In this document: positions 4,095 to 61,775 of the stretch, one piece after another | Position numbering within the stretch: position 1 is the stretch's first letter | Layout of the letters: every line of letters starts with the position of its first letter | NCBI RefSeq assembly: GCF_003427025.1 | Contig: NZ_QVAI01000001.1 | Span: forward strand, 620,001 to 684,000 | Origin: Jiangella endophytica | GTDB lineage: Bacteria > Actinomycetota > Actinomycetes > Jiangellales > Jiangellaceae | Direction of reading: 5' to 3' | DNA length: 64,000 bases | Notes under the pieces: model-generated | What the model was told of the DNA's origin: nothing | What the model saw: only the letters and a program-made list of their open reading frames with translations | The model's database searches: none | Made by a program: the position numbers and the translations under genes

Positions 4095-4712
4095 GTGAGT
4101 GTACGGCTCGTCGACAGTGCTGACGTCGACGAACGGGCCGAGATCGGCGACGGCTCCTCGGTCTGGCACCTCGCCCAGGTACGCGAGCACGCGGTGCTGG
4201 GGCGCAACTGCGTCGTCGGCCGCGGCGCCTACGTCGGCACCGGCGTCACCATCGGCGACAACTGCAAGATCCAGAACTACGCCCTGGTCTATGAGCCCGC
4301 GGTTCTCGAGGACGGCGTGTTCGTCGGACCGGCCGTGGTGCTGACCAACGACACCTTCCCGCGGGCGGTCAATCCCGACGGCTCGCAGAAGTCCGGCGCC
4401 GACTGGGAGGCCGTCGGCGTCACGCTGCGCGAGGGGTCCTCCATCGGCGCCCGAGCCGTGTGCGTGGCCCCCGTCACGGTGGGCCGGTGGGCTACAGTGG
4501 CGGCCGGTTCCGTGGTGACCAAGGACGTCCCGGACTTCGCCTTGGTCGCGGGAGTCCCGGCCAGGCGGCTCAAGTGGGTCGGCCGGGCCGGCGTCCCGCT
4601 GGAGGCCCGCGGCGACGGCCGCTGGATCTGCCCGCGGACCGGTGACGAGTACGTCGAGAGCGATGGCCGGCTGGCGGAGGCCGGTCGCGGAACTGAGGAG
4701 ATCGACACATGA
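4095..4712 (+). CDS. wbpD: Left-handed beta-helix N-acetyltransferase, WbpD/WlbB type
   Basis: A 205-residue acyltransferase of the hexapeptide-repeat family. Repeats such as AEIGDG, AVLGRN, VTIGDN, SSIGAR and VTVGRW form the left-handed beta helix; SVWHLAQVREHAVLG and NDTFPRAVNPDG are typical of enzymes that acetylate the 3-amino group of UDP-2-acetamido-3-amino-2,3-dideoxyglucuronate. The C-terminus has CPRTGDEYVE. Start: GTG at 4095, preceded by GGAGG seven bases upstream, which rules out the earlier in-frame ATG at 4056. Its stop overlaps the next start (ATGA at 4709), so it is translationally coupled to the aminotransferase that would make its substrate. The function is inferred from family and neighbours; a different amino-sugar acetyltransferase is possible. 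Confidence 0.85.
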   Translation: MSVRLVDSADVDERAEIGDGSSVWHLAQVREHAVLGRNCVVGRGAYVGTGVTIGDNCKIQNYALVYEPAVLEDGVFVGPAVVLTNDTFPRAVNPDGSQKSGADWEAVGVTLREGSSIGARAVCVAPVTVGRWATVAAGSVVTKDVPDFALVAGVPARRLKWVGRAGVPLEARGDGRWICPRTGDEYVESDGRLAEAGRGTEEIDT

Positions 4713-5800
4713 GCGCGAGCCCGATCGCGGCGGCCAAGCCGCTCATCGGCGACGAAGAGCGGGCAGCGGTCGACCGCGTCCTGCGCAGCGGCATGCTCGC
4801 GCAGGGGCCCGAGGTCGCGGCGTTCGAGGAGGAGTTCTCCGCCGCCCTGACGACCGGCCGCGCCTGCGTCGCGGTCAACTCCGGTACGTCCGGCCTGCAC
4901 CTCGGCCTGCTGGCGGCCGGTATCGGCCCGGGCGACGAGGTCATCGTGCCCTCGTTCACGTTCGCCGCCACGGCCAACTCCGTCGCGCTGACCGGCGCCA
5001 CGCCGGTGTTCGCCGACATCGAGCCGCACCACTTCGGCCTCGACCCGGCCGCCGTCGAGGCCGCCGTCACCGAGCGGACCGCCGGCATCATGCCGGTGCA
5101 CCTCTACGGCCACCCCGCGGACATGACCGCCCTCGGCGACGTCGCCCAGCGGCACGGCCTGCGCGTCTTCGAGGACGCCGCCCAGGCACACGCCGCCACC
5201 TGGCAGGGCCGCCAGGTCGGCACGTTCGGCGACTTCGCGATGTTCAGCCTCTACCCCACCAAGAACATGACGTCCGGCGAGGGCGGCATGGTCTCGACGG
5301 CCGACGCCGACCTCGAGCGCCGGCTGCGGCTGCTGCGCAACCAGGGCATGCTGCGCCAGTACGAGAACGAGCTGGTCGGCGTCAACAACCGCATGACCGA
5401 CCTGCACGCCGCCATCGGCCGGGTTCAGCTGACGAAGCTGCCCGGCTGGACGAAGCAGCGGCAGGAGAACGCCGCGTTCCTCGACCAGAACCTGCGCGGC
5501 GTGGTCGTGCCGCCGGTCGCCGAGCAGGCCACGCACGTCTACCACCAGTACACGATCCGGGTCGCCGACGACCGCGACGGCTTCGTCAAGGCGCTGCGCG
5601 AGGAGTACGCCGTCGGCTGCGGCGTCTACTACCCCATCCCGAACCACCGGCTGCCGTCGTTCGCGCGCGAGCTGGACCTCCCCGAGACCGAGCGGGCGGC
5701 CGCCGAGGTCGTGTCGCTGCCGGTGCACCCGGCGCTGACCCAGGAGGAGCTGGACCGCATCGTCGCGGCCGTCAACGCGATCGCGGGGGCGGGTTCCTGA
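4709..5800 (+). CDS. wbpE: DegT/DnrJ/EryC1/StrS sugar aminotransferase, WbpE/WlbC type
   Basis: A 363-residue PLP-dependent aminotransferase of the sugar-nucleotide class. NSGTSGLHLGLLA (from residue 57) binds the cofactor phosphate, FEDAAQAHAA (154-163) carries the aspartate that contacts the pyridine nitrogen, and Lys185 in SLYPTKNMTSGEGG is the expected Schiff-base lysine. VNNRMTDLHAAIG is the usual downstream signature. In the WbpB-WbpE pathway it transfers an amino group from glutamate to C3 of UDP-3-keto-GlcNAcA. It overlaps the acetyltransferase upstream by ATGA and the oxidoreductase downstream by one base (TGATG at 5798-5802), a tightly coupled trio. Exact substrate is inferred from this context. 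Confidence 0.9.
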   Translation: MSASPIAAAKPLIGDEERAAVDRVLRSGMLAQGPEVAAFEEEFSAALTTGRACVAVNSGTSGLHLGLLAAGIGPGDEVIVPSFTFAATANSVALTGATPVFADIEPHHFGLDPAAVEAAVTERTAGIMPVHLYGHPADMTALGDVAQRHGLRVFEDAAQAHAATWQGRQVGTFGDFAMFSLYPTKNMTSGEGGMVSTADADLERRLRLLRNQGMLRQYENELVGVNNRMTDLHAAIGRVQLTKLPGWTKQRQENAAFLDQNLRGVVVPPVAEQATHVYHQYTIRVADDRDGFVKALREEYAVGCGVYYPIPNHRLPSFARELDLPETERAAAEVVSLPVHPALTQEELDRIVAAVNAIAGAGS

Positions 5801-20807: not shown

Positions 20808-21863
20808 ATGGCTACGGTGCCGGTGCGCAAGGTGGCGCTGGTCGTCGGCGCTGCGGCGGCCGCCGCGTCGCTCGTCACGCTGGGCGTGGTGCTGGCCGGT
20901 GAGATCGCGGTGTCGCAGGGTCTGCTGCTGGTCGTCGCGTTCGGGCTGACCGCCGCGGTCGCCGTCCTCGGCGCGCTGGTGGTGCAGCTCAAGCGCAGTG
21001 TGTCGGCGGTCGCGGCGCGGCACACCCGGCAGTTGTCCGAACTGCACCAGACGCTGCGTGGCACCCTGGCGGTGAACGCCGAGACCGCGCGGGCGCAGGG
21101 GCGGGCGCTGGACGCCGCCGTCGATCAGATCGCCGCCCGGCTGGAGCCGCCGATCACCGCCACCGGGAAGCGGCTGGACGAGGTCGGCGCCGACGTCGCG
21201 GCCGGCCGCTGGGACACCGCCCAGACGTACTGGCAGATCGAGGCGCTGCTCGATCTGCGCACCATGCTGCAGCCGCGGGCCCTGATGCCACCGCTGCGCG
21301 ACTGGGCCGCGTCGCCCGACGTGCTGCGCTGGCTGGCCGAGTACGTGCTCTCCCGCCGCCCGGAACTGATCGTCGAGTGCGGCAGCGGCGCGTCCAGCCT
21401 GGTCCTGGGCTACGCCGCGCAGAAGGCCGGCCGCGGACGAGTGGTCGCGCTCGAGCACGACGCCGCGTTCGCCGAGGTCAGCGCCCGGCGAGTGGCCGAC
21501 CACGGGCTGCAGGACGTCGTCGAGGTGCGGCACGCGCCGCTGGCGCCGTGGGCCGGCCCCGACGAGCGCGACTGGAACTGGTACGACCTCGACTCCGTGA
21601 AGGACCTCGACGGCATCGGCCTGGTGTTCGTCGACGGCCCGCCGGCCGGTACCGGCCCGCTGGCCCGCTATCCGGCGCTGCCGGTGCTGCTGCCGCACTG
21701 CGCCGACGAGGTGACGTTCGTCCTCGACGACACCATCCGGCCCGACGAGGTCGAGGTCAGCGGCCGCTGGCTGCAGGAGCGGCCGGAGTTCGTCCGCCAG
21801 CAGCTGCGCGCCGACAAGGGCATGCACGTCCTGACCCGTCGTCCGGGCGACACCCCCGCCTGA
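20808..21863 (+). CDS. Membrane-anchored class I methyltransferase (paralogue 1 of 3)
   Basis: A 351-residue protein with an unusual layout shared with the products of 56067-57110 and 60585-61775. Two hydrophobic segments (about 8-30 and 38-60) anchor it; residues about 65-145 look like a coiled coil; a Rossmann methyltransferase domain follows. ELIVECGSGASSLVLG is the SAM-binding loop, GRVVALEHD holds the acidic residue that binds the ribose, VFVDGPPAGTG is the usual strand-4 motif and FVLDDTIRPDE follows. The domain resembles Methyltransf_24 enzymes, which methylate small molecules or sugars. The catalytic part would face the cytoplasm. A strong hairpin follows the stop codon. Substrate unknown; O-methylation of a lipid-linked glycan is a reasonable guess. 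Confidence 0.8.
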   Translation: MATVPVRKVALVVGAAAAAASLVTLGVVLAGEIAVSQGLLLVVAFGLTAAVAVLGALVVQLKRSVSAVAARHTRQLSELHQTLRGTLAVNAETARAQGRALDAAVDQIAARLEPPITATGKRLDEVGADVAAGRWDTAQTYWQIEALLDLRTMLQPRALMPPLRDWAASPDVLRWLAEYVLSRRPELIVECGSGASSLVLGYAAQKAGRGRVVALEHDAAFAEVSARRVADHGLQDVVEVRHAPLAPWAGPDERDWNWYDLDSVKDLDGIGLVFVDGPPAGTGPLARYPALPVLLPHCADEVTFVLDDTIRPDEVEVSGRWLQERPEFVRQQLRADKGMHVLTRRPGDTPA

Positions 21864-52765: not shown

Positions 52766-53935
52766 TCAGTCGGTGCGGGCGAAGTACGAGGCGTAGCCGG
52801 GGTCGACCCGGCCGGTGCCGCCGGCCTGCCGCCCACCCGCCCGCAACGCGGCGTCGGTCGCAGCGGCGTCGCGGACCACCCGCCACACCCCGAGGTCGTG
52901 GGTCGCGTACCCGTCGTCGCCGACGTCGACCAGCGTCAGAGGGTCGTCGAGGTCCGCCAGGCCCAGCGCCAGCGCATCGCCCGGCGAGGCGAGCACCGTC
53001 GCCGCGGTCAGCGAGTCCGCCGGTCGCTCCGTGGGCTCTCCCGGTGCCCGCACCGTGGTGTCCAGCGCCGGCAGGAACGTGCGCCGGACCCGCAGGCCGC
53101 TGACCGGCCGCTGGCCGTACCCGCGCCCGAGCACGAGGTCCTCGACGTACTCCGGCGCGTAGCTCAGACCGCTCGCCGGCAGCGTCACGAGGTCGGTCTC
53201 GCACGCCTCCACCGCACGCCGCCGCTCCGCCGCGCCCTCGGCGACCCGGACCGTCAGCGCGGGCCAGGTCTGCCGGCGCAGGTCGCGCAGCAGCACGGCG
53301 TCGCCAGGTGCGACCACGGCGGTGACCGACGGCGGCGAGGAGGCGACGCCGGCGGCCGCGGTGGCGGCGCGCAGGGCGGCTCGGCGGGCCGCGACGGACC
53401 AGCGCTCGCGCCGCACGGGGTCGGCCAAGGTCGACGGCGTCAGCCCGGCCACGAGGTCACCGAGCACCGTCCCGAGCAGCCGCCGGACCACCAGCGGCAG
53501 ATCCGGCGCGTACACCGGGACGCCGCCGACCAGCAGTTGGCGCAGGAACCCGGCCAGCTCGACCGGGCCGGTCGCCGCGCCGAACGGCACCTGCACGCCG
53601 GCGTACGGGCGCACCTGCGCCAGGGCGGTGGTGCTGACGACCGCGGGCCGCCCGAGGTCGGTCAGCCGGGTGCGCCCCGCGTAGAGCCGCAGCGAGCCGG
53701 ACGACGTGGTGCGCAGCTGCGCCAGCGGCCGGGGCGGCGCGCCGGGGCCGTCGTCGTCGAACGCGTCGAACCCGGCGGGGGAGACCAGCGTCGTGTTGAC
53801 CGCGGGCAGCGGCGCCGTGACGACGGCGCTGGCAGCCGCCCGGAGCTCGGCCGGGTCGAGAGCGGCCAATCCGGTCCAGTTCGGGACAAACGCCTCGGAG
53901 ATCGGTGCTGGTGGAAGGTCGGTTTTGGTCGGCAT
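52766..53935 (-). CDS. Protein of unknown function, possibly a degenerate glycosyltransferase-like protein
   Basis: A 389-residue cytoplasmic protein with no signal peptide. Codon use is as GC-rich as the neighbours, so it is expressed-type coding DNA. The first 190 residues hold LRLYAGRTRLTDLGRPAVV and LVVRRLLGTVLGDLVAGL. From about 205 the pattern SVTAVVAPGD, LLRDLRRQTWPALTVRVAEG, RRAVEACETDLVTLPASG and YAPEYVEDLVL resembles a GT2 fold that has lost its DxD motif, much like the C-terminal part of the 54015-55433 product. It is divergent from that glycosyltransferase by 79 bp, so the two may share a promoter and act together. The start may be ATG 53935 or GTG 53938. Confidence 0.65.
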   Translation of the reverse strand: MPTKTDLPPAPISEAFVPNWTGLAALDPAELRAAASAVVTAPLPAVNTTLVSPAGFDAFDDDGPGAPPRPLAQLRTTSSGSLRLYAGRTRLTDLGRPAVVSTTALAQVRPYAGVQVPFGAATGPVELAGFLRQLLVGGVPVYAPDLPLVVRRLLGTVLGDLVAGLTPSTLADPVRRERWSVAARRAALRAATAAAGVASSPPSVTAVVAPGDAVLLRDLRRQTWPALTVRVAEGAAERRRAVEACETDLVTLPASGLSYAPEYVEDLVLGRGYGQRPVSGLRVRRTFLPALDTTVRAPGEPTERPADSLTAATVLASPGDALALGLADLDDPLTLVDVGDDGYATHDLGVWRVVRDAAATDAALRAGGRQAGGTGRVDPGYASYFARTD

Positions 53936-54014
53936 CACAGGGCCCGGTAGGTTCTCAGCGTGTCACCGCCCGGAGAGCGGCGACCCCACACTACCCGGCT
54001 GCAGCGGAGGAACG

Positions 54015-55433
54015 ATGTCGCCCACGGTCCGGACGCCGGTCGCCGTGCCCCGTCAGGAGTGGACCACCGTCGAGGTGCCCGATCTCGGCGCCTGGACACC
54101 GGCTCTGACCGTGACGGTGGTGCTCCCGGCGAAGGACTGCCAGGGAGAGCTCGACCTCACGCTGGCCGCCCTCGCGGCGCAGACCTACCCGGCCGAGCTC
54201 CTGGACGTCATCGTCGTCGACGACGCGTCCGCCGAGCCGCTGCGGCTGCCCGCCGTGCATCCTGAGCGGGTCCGCGTACTCCGGCTGCCGCCCGGCGACG
54301 GGCACGGCTCCGGGCGGGCCCGGCACGCCGGCGCCGAGGCCGCCACCGGCGACATCGTGCTGTTCCTCGATGCCGACATCGTCGCCACCCGTACGCACGT
54401 CGAGGCGCACGCCCGCTGGCACCACACGCTGGCCGACGCCGTCGTGCTCGGGCACAAGATGTTCGTCGACTTCGACGACATCACCGCCGACGACGTTCTC
54501 GCCGCCACCCGCGACGACAGCTTCGACCAGTTGCTCGACGGCCGGAAGCAGAAGAAGCACACCTGGCACGAGGACTTCATCCGCGAGGCCGGCCGGCTCA
54601 CCGCGTACGCCGACGACACCTTCATCGCGGTGGTCGGCGCCAGCGTGTCCGCGCCGCGGGCGCTGTACGCCGAGAGCGGCGGGTTCTCGACGTTCGGGCT
54701 GCGCGGCATCGTCGACACCGAGTTCGGCTACCGCATCTTCACCGCCGGCGCCGTGCTCGTCCCGGAGCCGGCCGCGCGCAGCTACCACCAGGGCGCCCGC
54801 AACTTCGCCACCCGCGGCGACGAGATCAAGCGCGAGCGGTCCGGCCTGGCCGCCAACCACCTGCCGATCCCGCTGTTCCGGCCGTCCGACGTCGGGCGCA
54901 TGTGGCAGGTGCCGGTCGTGCACGCCGTCGTCGACGCCACCAGCGGGACGCCCGAGCAGGTCCAGGTCACCGTCGACAGCATCCTGGCCTCGGCCTACAC
55001 CGACCTCGTCGTCACGGTGTCGCCGAGCAAGGAGCTGCCGCGCTGGATCGAGGACTACTTCGCCGCCGACGCCCGGGTGCGGTTCGCTCCCGAGCCCGTC
55101 CGCACCGGCTTCCCTGCGCCGTTCTCGCTGGTCGTCCCGGCCGGCGTGGCCATCGGGCGGCCGGCGGTCGGGACCCTGCTGGCGCTGTCGGCGTCGGAGC
55201 GGGTTGGGCTGGTGCGCACGACGGTGTCCGACGAGCCCGGCCCGCCGGTCGAGCTGTGGGCCACCCGCGCGCTGCACCGGGCCCGCCGGCACGCCGGGCC
55301 CGAGGGGCTCGACGAGACCGCGCGGCGGCTGTTCGGCGCCCACTGGGTCAGCGGCGCCGAGATCGGTGTGCAGCCCTCCGTCGTCGGCGTCACCAAGCAG
55401 GGCATGCTGGTCGAGGCGTCGGCGGCGGACTGA
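54015..55433 (+). CDS. Glycosyltransferase family 2
   Basis: A 472-residue cytoplasmic protein. TVTVVLPAKDCQGELDLTLA and LDVIVVDDASAEPL begin the GT-A fold near residue 38; RARHAGAEAATGDIVLFLDADIV carries the DAD metal motif near 120; KQKKHTWHEDFIREAG and GIVDTEFGYRIFTAGAVLV (ED-type acceptor region) follow. The C-terminal third (about 315-472) is a second, degenerate GT2-like module without a metal motif. GGAGGAA lies just before the ATG at 54015; upstream in-frame codons fall in the divergent promoter region and are rejected. It is followed immediately by a decayed gene on the other strand. Confidence 0.87.
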   Translation: MSPTVRTPVAVPRQEWTTVEVPDLGAWTPALTVTVVLPAKDCQGELDLTLAALAAQTYPAELLDVIVVDDASAEPLRLPAVHPERVRVLRLPPGDGHGSGRARHAGAEAATGDIVLFLDADIVATRTHVEAHARWHHTLADAVVLGHKMFVDFDDITADDVLAATRDDSFDQLLDGRKQKKHTWHEDFIREAGRLTAYADDTFIAVVGASVSAPRALYAESGGFSTFGLRGIVDTEFGYRIFTAGAVLVPEPAARSYHQGARNFATRGDEIKRERSGLAANHLPIPLFRPSDVGRMWQVPVVHAVVDATSGTPEQVQVTVDSILASAYTDLVVTVSPSKELPRWIEDYFAADARVRFAPEPVRTGFPAPFSLVVPAGVAIGRPAVGTLLALSASERVGLVRTTVSDEPGPPVELWATRALHRARRHAGPEGLDETARRLFGAHWVSGAEIGVQPSVVGVTKQGMLVEASAAD

Positions 55434-55802
55434 TCAGAGCTCGCCGGCCCGGCGCAGCGCGTCGGCGAACACCTCGACCGGTTGCGCGCCGACCACCAGG
55501 TACCGCTCGCCGACCAGGAACGTCGGCACGCCGGTGACGCCCACCCGGCGGCCGAGGTCCTCGTCCGCCCGGACGTCGTCCGCATGCGCGTCGCTCGCCA
55601 GCAGGCGGCCGACGGCGTCGCCGTCCAGTCCCGCCTCGGCGCCGAGCCGGACCAGCTCGTCGCGGTCGGCGATGACGACGCCCTCCGCGGTGTACGCGCG
55701 TAGTCACCGAACCTGCACCCGTTCGGCGAGCCCCACGCTCGCGGCGTACCGGATCAGACGGTGCGCGTCGAAGCTGTTCACCGGACGAGCCCGGTCCAGA
55801 GC
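55434..55802 (-). pseudogene. Remnant of a DsbA-family oxidoreductase (FrnE-like), C-terminal half
   Basis: Read on the minus strand, the sequence gives LDRARPVNSFDAHRLIRYA, then an in-frame TGA at 55704-55706, then LRAYTAEGVVIADRDELVRL, GVTGVPTFLVGERYLVVGAQ and PVEVFADALRRAGEL. These follow the C-terminal half of FrnE/2-hydroxychromene-2-carboxylate isomerase-like DsbA proteins in order. The stop replaces one codon of a conserved helix, and the N-terminal thioredoxin half with its active-site cysteines is missing. It ends exactly where the HxlR-like remnant begins on the other strand. It is a dead gene. Confidence 0.75.
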
Positions 55803-56063
55803 GACTGCCCCGGCCGCCGGGTCCTCGAACGGGTCACCAGCCGGTGGGGCATCCTCGTCCTCGCCGCGCAGCACGACGGGCCGCTGCGGTTCTATCAGCT
55901 GCGCGACCGCATCGGCGGCATCAGCGAGCGGATGCCCTCGCTCAAGCTGCGCGAGCTGAGTCCGCTCGGGCGCGAGCTGACCGTCCCGCTACAGGCGCTG
56001 CTGGACTGGATCGCGCTCCGCACCCTCGACGTCGTCGCGGCGCAGGAGGCGTACGACGCGGCG
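55803..56063 (+). pseudogene. HxlR-family transcription regulator with the wing deleted
   Basis: DCPGRRVLERVTSRWGILVL, GPLRFYQLRDRIGGISERMP and SLKLREL are the first two-thirds of an HxlR winged-helix domain; PLGRELTVPLQALLDWIAL, then AAQEAYDAA, are its end. The roughly 28 residues expected between LREL and PLGREL (recognition helix end and wing) are absent in frame, near 55961. There is no stop codon of its own: the frame runs on antisense into the methyltransferase gene. An open GTG at 55761 could start it, but the upstream codons overlap the FrnE remnant. The protein could not bind DNA normally. Confidence 0.72.
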
Positions 56064-56066
56064 GGG

Positions 56067-57110
56067 CTAGCGCGTGACGGTGAAGAACCGGGTGCGGCCG
56101 ACCATCTCGTCGTCGGCGAGACGGATCCCGTCGACGGTCTCGGCCAGCCAGTCGGCGGCGATGTCGGCCTCGTCCTGCCGCTGGGCGTCGTCGAGCGCGA
56201 CGATGGCGCCGTCGTCCAGAGCGGCCGCCAGCAGCGGGAACGCGGGGAAACGCGACCGCGGCCCGACACTCCCGGGCGGCCCGTCGACGAACAGCAGGTC
56301 GATGCCGCGCAGCTCGTTCCACTGCGGCGCCGCGTACCAGTCGTGCTTCTCGCCGCCGACGGTGACCGGCTCGAGCGGCGCGTCCCGGACTTCGGCGATG
56401 TCGTCCAGCCCGTGCCGGGCCAGCGCCTCGCGGGTGCGCTCGGCGTAGAGCTCGTGGTGCTCCAGTGCGACGACGCGGCCCTTGCCCGCCCGCCGGCAGG
56501 CCAGCGCCAGCCAGACCGTCGAGCTGCCGCTGCCGCACTCCACGATGAGCGCGTCGGCCGGCAGCCGGCGCACCAGGGAGGCCAGCCGCAGCACCGTCCG
56601 CGGTGAGGCCGCGAAGCCGCCGAACGCCGGGACCTCGTCGTCGGCGCCGAGCATGGCGTACAGGTTGGCCAGTGCCGACAGTTCGGCCAGCTGCCGTTCG
56701 GTCAGCGTGGCGTGCAGGTCGGCGCGCAGCTCGTGGTGCAGCGCGACCAGCTCGTCGTGCCGTACGGCGGCGTCGAGGCGCTGCGCCCCGATGATCGCGG
56801 CGAGCGGCCCGCCGCTGGGGTCGTTCTGCCGCTCCGCGACCGCCTGGACCGACGTCCCGACGGCCTCGATCGCCTCGGTGAGCGACCTGACCTGTTTCTC
56901 GGTCCTGCGGGCGCGCTGCTCGGCCTCGCGGGCGCTCGCCCCGACGACGACCAGTCCGATCAGCGTCAGTCCCAGCAGCAGCGCCAGTGCCGCCTGCGCG
57001 AGCCCGCCGGTGGCGGCCATGACGACAGCCACGACGACGGCGGCGAAGGCGCCGAGCATGCCCAGCAGGGGCCAGCGGGAGCCGAGTAGCGCGCGTATCG
57101 CCCGTTGCAT
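56067..57110 (-). CDS. Membrane-anchored class I methyltransferase (paralogue 2 of 3)
   Basis: A 347-residue protein with two hydrophobic segments (about 14-34 and 39-57), a coiled-coil region rich in Glu, Arg and Ala (about 58-90) and a methyltransferase domain. LIVECGSGSSTVWLAL is the SAM loop, GRVVALEHHE the ribose-binding strand, LLFVDGPPGSVGP and AIVALDDAQRQDE follow, in the same order as in the proteins at 20808 and 60585. It starts 51 bp downstream of the glycosyltransferase gene on the same strand and is probably in its operon. A methyl cap on a lipid-linked glycan is possible; the substrate is not known. Confidence 0.8.
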   Translation of the reverse strand: MQRAIRALLGSRWPLLGMLGAFAAVVVAVVMAATGGLAQAALALLLGLTLIGLVVVGASAREAEQRARRTEKQVRSLTEAIEAVGTSVQAVAERQNDPSGGPLAAIIGAQRLDAAVRHDELVALHHELRADLHATLTERQLAELSALANLYAMLGADDEVPAFGGFAASPRTVLRLASLVRRLPADALIVECGSGSSTVWLALACRRAGKGRVVALEHHELYAERTREALARHGLDDIAEVRDAPLEPVTVGGEKHDWYAAPQWNELRGIDLLFVDGPPGSVGPRSRFPAFPLLAAALDDGAIVALDDAQRQDEADIAADWLAETVDGIRLADDEMVGRTRFFTVTR

Positions 57111-60584: not shown

Positions 60585-61775
60585 ATGAGACTGACGAAGC
60601 AGCGTGCGGCCATGATCGCCGCGGGCATCGCTGTGGTCGTCGTCGGTGTGTCGGCTGGGCTCGGCTGGTGGCAGGTGGCTCTGACGATGGTCGCGGCCGT
60701 CCAGGTGGCGGGCGTCGTCCTGCTCGTGGACATCCGCGGCCGCATGGCGCGTTCGCACGAGGTGCGCAAGGTCTCCGCATCGGTGCGGAAGACGCACCGG
60801 CGGCTCGACAACGTGGGCACGCGGATGCTGGCGGCCGCGGAGAAGAACCGGGTCGAGACGGCCGACGGGCTGGCCTCGATCGGGCAGGCGCTGGACGAAC
60901 GGCGGGTCGCGGAGGCGAGCCTGCAGAAGGAGCTCTCCGACGTCGCGGCCAGCGTCGACGCGCATCGGGCGCGGGTCGACGCCTGGGGGGCGCAGCTCGG
61001 CGACTGGCACGGCGAGCTCGAGGCCGTCCGGACCAGCCTCGCCGAGACCGGTCAGCGGGTCAGCGCCGCCCTGGACGAGGCCGAGCAGGACCGCCGCATG
61101 CAGGACAAGCGGCAGGCCGCCGAGTTGGCCCGGCACGTCCGGCAGACCGAGGCGCTCATCCAGCTCTACGACCGCGTGCAACCGCGCGCCGCCATGCCGT
61201 CGTCCGGTGGGTGGGCGCTGGACCCGACCGGAGTGCTGACGCTGCTCGAGGTCGTCCGGCAGCGCCGCCCCGAGCTGGTGCTGGAGCTCGGTTCCGGCAC
61301 GTCGACGCTCTGGGTCGGGTATGTACTGCAGCAGCTGGGCGCGGGCCGAGTCGTCGCCATCGACCACGAGGAGCGCTTCGCGGAGCTGACCCGCGCCAAT
61401 GTCGCGGCGCATGGCCTCGACGACGTCATCGACGTGCGGGTGGCGGCGCTCACCGACCCGGGGCTTCCCACGCACGAAACCCCCTGGTACGACCACGCTG
61501 CCATGGCCGACCTTCGCGACATCGACCTGCTCGTGGTCGACGGCCCGCCGAAGGCCACCGGCCCGATGGCGCGCTACCCCGCGGTCCCGGTCCTGGCCGG
61601 CCAGCTGCGCGACGACGCGGTGGTCGCGCTCGACGACGCCACCCGGCCCGACGAGCGCGAGGTCTGGCACCGCTGGCGCAGGGAGAACGACGGCCTGGAC
61701 GTGTGGGCCGTGCCGCCTGGCGACGCCCTCAAGGTGCTGGCGCTGAACCGGTCAGCCGGCGACGAGCCGGCGTAG
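60585..61775 (+). CDS. Membrane-anchored class I methyltransferase (paralogue 3 of 3)
   Basis: A 396-residue protein, the longest of the three paralogues. Two hydrophobic segments (about 9-25 and 27-46) are followed by a long coiled coil (about 55-195: TRMLAAAEKNRVETADGLAS, LQKELSDVAASVDAH, VRTSLAETGQRVSAALDEA). The methyltransferase domain starts near 215: ELVLELGSGTSTLWVGY (SAM loop), GRVVAIDHEE, LLVVDGPPKATGP and VVALDDATRPDE. AGGAGGT lies a few bases before the ATG. The 3' end overlaps the convergent glycosyltransferase by 24 bp. The coiled coil suggests oligomers or binding to a partner. Confidence 0.83.
   Translation: MRLTKQRAAMIAAGIAVVVVGVSAGLGWWQVALTMVAAVQVAGVVLLVDIRGRMARSHEVRKVSASVRKTHRRLDNVGTRMLAAAEKNRVETADGLASIGQALDERRVAEASLQKELSDVAASVDAHRARVDAWGAQLGDWHGELEAVRTSLAETGQRVSAALDEAEQDRRMQDKRQAAELARHVRQTEALIQLYDRVQPRAAMPSSGGWALDPTGVLTLLEVVRQRRPELVLELGSGTSTLWVGYVLQQLGAGRVVAIDHEERFAELTRANVAAHGLDDVIDVRVAALTDPGLPTHETPWYDHAAMADLRDIDLLVVDGPPKATGPMARYPAVPVLAGQLRDDAVVALDDATRPDEREVWHRWRRENDGLDVWAVPPGDALKVLALNRSAGDEPA

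Follow-up and report, generated by a model that had tools for sequence, protein, structure and literature searches.

Two very probable pseudogenes left from a divergent FrnE–HxlR gene pair in Jiangella endophytica

Introduction

In Jiangella endophytica, a stretch of 633 bp (55434–56066) is flanked by a glycosyltransferase-like gene on one side and a methyltransferase-like gene on the other, and the question that it raises is whether it encodes small proteins on opposite strands or holds what is left of a larger gene pair. All coordinates refer to the window, the whole stretch of 64,000 nucleotides that was analyzed, which is part of contig C1 of a 7.85-Mb draft genome (G000). A sequence-only reading of this DNA had described the stretch as head-to-head remnants of a FrnE-like oxidoreductase and an HxlR regulator. 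Pfam matches on opposite strands and the presence of an intact copy in 2 relatives (G004 and G008) bear this description out, and we conclude that the FrnE–HxlR pair of the window very probably consists of 2 pseudogenes.

The thioredoxin-fold proteins, to which FrnE belongs, include selenoproteins, and DUF24 and HxlR are one family. As described in an excerpt of PMC8945050, FrnE proteins, which owe their name to frnE of Streptomyces roseofulvus, are predicted to be cytoplasmic members of the DsbA family of thiol oxidoreductases, with a CP(W/F)C motif in Deinococcus. YodB of Bacillus subtilis is presented in part of PMC8063818 as a MarR/DUF24 thiol sensor, a regulator that responds to electrophiles via Cys6 and Cys101, and the grecocycline cluster table in an excerpt of PMC4943663 lists the FrnE homologue GreD and the HxlR regulator GreR2 consecutively.

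Results

Each half of the stretch matches part of a protein family

The stretch and its neighbors comprise the following features:

53706–55433, plus strand: glycosyltransferase-like ORF, flanking gene, listed from its first GTG (the name is our reading)
55434–55799, minus strand: FrnE/DsbA-family remnant, corresponding to everything from residue 107 onward in the G004 relative
55704–55706, minus strand: in-frame TGA in the FrnE remnant, a Leu codon in G004 and G008
55799–55800, no strand: deletion junction 1, at which 399 bp are absent relative to the full-length pair
55800–56066, plus strand: HxlR-family remnant, which begins with SDCPGR at residue 21 of the G004 relative
55952–55958, plus strand: deletion junction 2, 66 bp (HxlR residues 74–95) lost at CGAGCT
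56058–56066, plus strand: 2-bp shortening relative to G008 that displaces the HxlR frame
56067–57110, minus strand: methyltransferase-like ORF, flanking gene without internal stops (the name is our reading)

The FrnE remnant has kept its own stop codon (55434–55436), which is abutted by the TGA stop of the glycosyltransferase-like gene, and has lost its N-terminal half together with the CPWC motif. The HxlR remnant has kept its Cys, has lost its start and its presumed wing, and its frame is open beyond the old stop. At the other end, the stop of the methyltransferase-like gene (cta, 56067–56069) falls in the CTAG (56067–56070) that holds the former HxlR TAG. The true start of the glycosyltransferase-like ORF is probably further in than the first GTG, and the window contains paralogues of the methyltransferase-like gene (56067–57110), since stretches at 21366–21773 and 61282–61655 share 68–69% identity with part of it.

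When the FrnE remnant was searched against Pfam, the part after the TGA matched the DSBA family (PF01323, E 5e-17) over profile positions 110–190 of 191 only, and the 34-amino acid part before the TGA, searched alone, matched no family. The HxlR remnant matched the HxlR family (PF01638, E 2.6e-9) over profile positions 2–44 of 91 only. In G004 and G008, FrnE matched DSBA over nearly the full length (E 4e-41 and 3.1e-40, respectively) and HxlR matched its profile over positions 2–85 and 2–84, respectively; in NCBIfam, none of 5 proteins searched matched above the cut-off. The CXXC active site, which reads CPWC in G004 and CPWR in G008, is absent from the FrnE remnant, and we class this remnant as a pseudogene of a DsbA family member and not as a working member of the family. 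The HxlR remnant falls short of a winged helix-turn-helix domain (approximately 90 positions), with a partial profile match and the presumed wing absent.

The DSBA domain is shared with FrnE of Deinococcus radiodurans and other Deinococcus, as is, in the G004 relative, the CPWC motif, whereas the window remnant lacks residues 1–106 including CPWC and G008 reads CPWR (excerpt of PMC8945050). Where the HxlR domain begins, the remnant and both relatives, G004 and G008, have a Cys that resembles the YodB type; as in the YodB described in part of PMC8063818, it stands shortly before the winged-helix domain, within SDCPGR. Unlike that protein, the remnant is without start, wing, and stop, and Cys-based sensing by the HxlR of the window would be an analogy with YodB (PMC8063818, in part).

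Two relatives hold the full-length pair in the same slot

When 40 genomes, G000 included, were searched at the DNA level, the whole pair turned up in 2 others of the genus, G004 and G008. In both, the pair (approximately 1.1 kb) sits between the same 2 neighbors, in a slot of 1112 bp in G008 (L019) and 1081 bp in G004 (L020), and the FrnE and HxlR genes are divergent. FrnE has 224 amino acids in G004 and, as its ORF is listed, 238 in G008; for HxlR the lengths are 133 and 132 amino acids, respectively. The remnants of the window are 86% identical in nucleotides to the full-length G008 pair over 361 bp and 89% identical over 160 plus 116 bp, levels of identity that argue against a chance likeness.

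The start codons listed for FrnE and HxlR in G004 are 21 bp apart. In the 240 bp examined around the starts, GC drops to 0.42–0.47 (40-bp steps), below that of the flanking coding DNA, and G004 and G008 are 88–95% identical per 40-bp block, compared with 42–98% elsewhere in these 240 bp (unaligned ends excluded). Such a profile suggests that a promoter or operator may lie between the 2 starts in the relatives; a search around the starts for palindromes with arms of at least 6 bp found none in G004 or G008. The FrnE gene of G008 (L019:5048–5740) is full length and has CPWR in place of CPWC, possibly an early step of decay.

Four lesions separate the window from the full-length pair

The sequence-only reading had proposed to look for an intact copy in related genomes and to align it, and alignment with G004 and G008 located the breakpoints of both deletions. 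The larger deletion, of 399 bp, comprises FrnE codons 1–106 with CPWC, the 21 bp that separate the starts, and the first 20 codons of HxlR (318 + 21 + 60), and no microhomology was found at its aligned junction. The claim that the FrnE half lacks its active-site half thus holds, and so does the claim that no promoter lies between the halves, insofar as everything that lies between the 2 starts in the relatives has been deleted. A clear deletion junction had also been announced and is there; by alignment it falls at 55799|55800, 3 bases from the place given (55802/55803).

The smaller deletion, of 66 bp, is in frame, occurred at the direct repeat CGAGCT (55952–55957), and removes HxlR residues 74–95, the presumed wing, as had been stated. 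The TGA reported at 55704–55706 is indeed in frame in the FrnE half. Its surroundings differ from G008 at 6 positions inside 12 bases, which makes a single read error an unlikely cause, and FrnE and HxlR are broken even if the TGA is discounted. Near the 3′ end of HxlR, the window has 2 bp fewer than G008, and this shortening puts the CTAG at 56067–56070 out of the HxlR frame. In agreement with the reported loss of the stop, the open frame extends to 56606, inside the methyltransferase-like gene of the opposite strand. G004 also differs near the HxlR 3′ end, where its frame closes at a later TGA. We thus count 4 lesions where at least 3 separate events had been postulated.

Point changes show a non-significant trend toward relaxed selection

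To see how selection has acted on point changes, we compared 118 of 121 FrnE codons and 83 of 86 HxlR codons (201 in total) with 695 codons of the 2 flanking genes. Changes private to the window were distributed over codon positions 1, 2, and 3 as 6:14:19 in the remnants and 21:12:59 in the flanks. When positions 1 and 2 were set against position 3, the Fisher test gave p 0.12 relative to the flanks and p 0.24 relative to the G004 plus G008 pair; 19 of the 39 private changes of the remnants were at position 3, where one third would be expected (p 0.06). The ratio of amino acid-changing to silent changes was 17:12 in the remnants and 33:49 in the flanks (Fisher p 0.13), and dN/dS with G008 was 0.29 and 0.25, respectively. 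Relaxed selection on the point changes is therefore a non-significant trend only, in codon tests of low power. A weak signal is what would be expected if most of the divergence predates the breakage, and the case for pseudogenes rests on the lesions, with the codon changes only leaning to relaxation.

The pair has probably been lost more than once in the genus

The slot could be read in 11 of the 12 genomes of the genus, all 11 of which have the glycosyltransferase-like neighbor; G005 stands outside the count because no such neighbor was seen next to its methyltransferase match. Two readable slots hold the full pair (G004 and G008), 2 hold remnants (G000 and G009), and 7 are without the pair (16–295 bp). 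The search for remnants covered slots of at least 30 bp (those of G001, G010, and G011 are shorter); in the longer pair-less slots (G002, G003, G006, and G007), a match to the pair was looked for and none was found. The 188-bp slot of G002 (L028) contains by eye a GC-rich inverted repeat and has no match to the pair. The sequence-only reading had named an observation that would speak against it, namely that relatives share the short arrangement and that purifying selection maintains it. Of the 10 other genomes of the genus whose slot is readable, none has this arrangement.

The second set of remnants, in G009 (J. muralis; L021 about 4602–5028, and L051), is a separate FrnE–HxlR wreck with its own breakpoints. 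Relative to G004, it has lost 27, 60, 237, 336, and 3 bp, all 5 being multiples of three. It retains FrnE residues 38–62, which are absent from the window; HxlR residues 21–68 are present in the window and missing from G009. Neither wreck can be derived from the other by further deletion.

The slot of G010 has 27 bp and no pair although its sister G004 has it. G010 groups with G004 in the IQ-TREE analyses with support of 99 (flanks), 96 (rpoB region), and 100 (joined), and the FastTree tree likewise pairs the 2 genomes (0.994). G004 and G010 in turn group with G009 (100, 95, and 100, respectively). From these placements, the simplest reading is that the ancestor of G004, G010, and G009 had the pair and that G010 lost it. 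The placement of G000 is poorly supported: 34 (flanks), 47 (rpoB region), and 23 (joined). Near the ends of G008:C1, a single contig, the rpoB region matches 3 times, which resembles overlapping, unclosed assembly ends.

A further FrnE-type gene, 42–45% identical and without internal stops, is present in all 12 genomes of the genus, and the one of G000 carries CPWC.

Deletions of at least 27 bp have lengths that are multiples of three

All 6 deletions of at least 27 bp have lengths that are multiples of three (399 and 66 bp in G000; 27, 60, 237, and 336 bp in G009). In the full-length pair, direct 6-mer repeats that are 10–450 bp apart are spaced by a multiple of three in 239 of 324 cases in G004 and 294 of 439 in G008, and the same holds for 3054 of the 5235 pairs of 8-mer repeats at such distances in the whole window. 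Given this spacing in codon-structured DNA, deletions mediated by repeats would favor multiples of three without selection. Junction homology amounts to 6 bp for the 66-bp deletion, to 5 and 4 bp within 12 bases for the 27- and 60-bp deletions, and to 2 bp or less at the 399-, 237-, and 336-bp deletions. Repeat spacing is a partial explanation because 3 of the 6 junctions have such short homology. The repeated loss within one genus (a wreck in the window, another in J. muralis, loss in G010, and an active-site Cys lost in G008), with these deletions in multiples of three, could mean that truncated products are still translated or that a cost of the intact pair selects for its loss, but such a reading is improbable.

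Discussion

Repeated decay of an accessory redox pair in the genus is the best explanation of these data: a full-length orthologue occupies the same slot in relatives, and the copy in the window carries disabling lesions. The ancestor of G000 and its sister species would have had an accessory divergent pair of a FrnE/DsbA-type gene and a Cys-bearing HxlR gene between the glycosyltransferase-like and methyltransferase-like genes. The 399-bp deletion would have taken both start codons, the intervening region, and the FrnE active site, and the presumed HxlR wing, the FrnE TGA, and the shortened 3′ end of HxlR would go back to separate events. Silencing of both genes by the 399-bp deletion is our inference, as is the order in which these events are given; the intact pair in 2 relatives, the breakpoints, the different wreck in G009, and the absence from G010 are observed. 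By analogy with YodB, HxlR may have controlled FrnE as a thiol-stress sensor, and the pair appears to have been dispensable, perhaps because another FrnE-type gene remains.

If the short arrangement still coded, a truncated C-terminal piece of FrnE or a wingless HxlR would be kept by selection. Residues are largely conserved in both halves with a moderate dN/dS, the HxlR frame is open, and the 6 deletions of at least 27 bp in G000 and G009 are multiples of three, all of which would fit such products. Neither start codon is left, however, nor is the DNA that separated the 2 starts; FrnE has a TGA and no CXXC, and HxlR, without its presumed wing and stop, reads antisense into its neighbor. The arrangement is also seen in no relative with a readable slot, and the multiple-of-three spacing of 6-mer repeats allows in-frame deletions without selection, so we regard retained coding as very unlikely. 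An assembly or sequencing artefact would mean that the real genome has an intact pair. G000 is a draft of 89 contigs, but the deletions lie inside a 985-kb contig and are unlike every relative seen, the point changes are scattered over both halves, and G009 has a similar yet different wreck, which makes an artefact extremely unlikely. Selenocysteine or another recoding of the TGA could draw on the selenoproteins of the thioredoxin-fold class and on the weak match of the G008 FrnE to a seleno-lipoprotein model (31 bits, cut-off 190). Yet the active-site half is missing, and we rejected recoding, whose probability is negligible, on the ground that the codon aligns with Leu in G004 and G008 and not with the active-site Cys.

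With decay as the preferred reading, 55434–56066 is better annotated as 2 pseudogenes than as small genes. One locus in one genus thus offers a clean example of gene decay, with a full pair, 2 separate wrecks, and an empty slot, and points to the FrnE–HxlR pair as a probably accessory and dispensable unit in the genus. For bacterial genomes there is nothing surprising in this; the 2 pseudogenes are of an ordinary kind, and the comparative evidence for them is good.

FrnE and HxlR genes as neighbors outside the genus

HxlR matches at E 1e-25 or better were obtained in 126 of 296 genomes, and a FrnE neighbor was sought at 30 listed loci. Among the matches listed, FrnE lies within the 1.5-kb flanks of 3 of the 27 HxlR loci outside the genus, 2 of which are divergent (G135 and G243). 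These 2 pairs, from other actinomycetes, have FrnE beside HxlR in the same divergent order, whereas the genes of the window are broken. The same contrast applies to GreD and GreR2, listed in an excerpt of PMC4943663, where a FrnE-family gene stands beside an HxlR-family gene as in the Jiangella relatives. In other actinomycetes, HxlR-type matches with one internal TGA were observed at G157:C1:755216–755557, G251:C210:12457–12828, and G288:C4:10665–10997.
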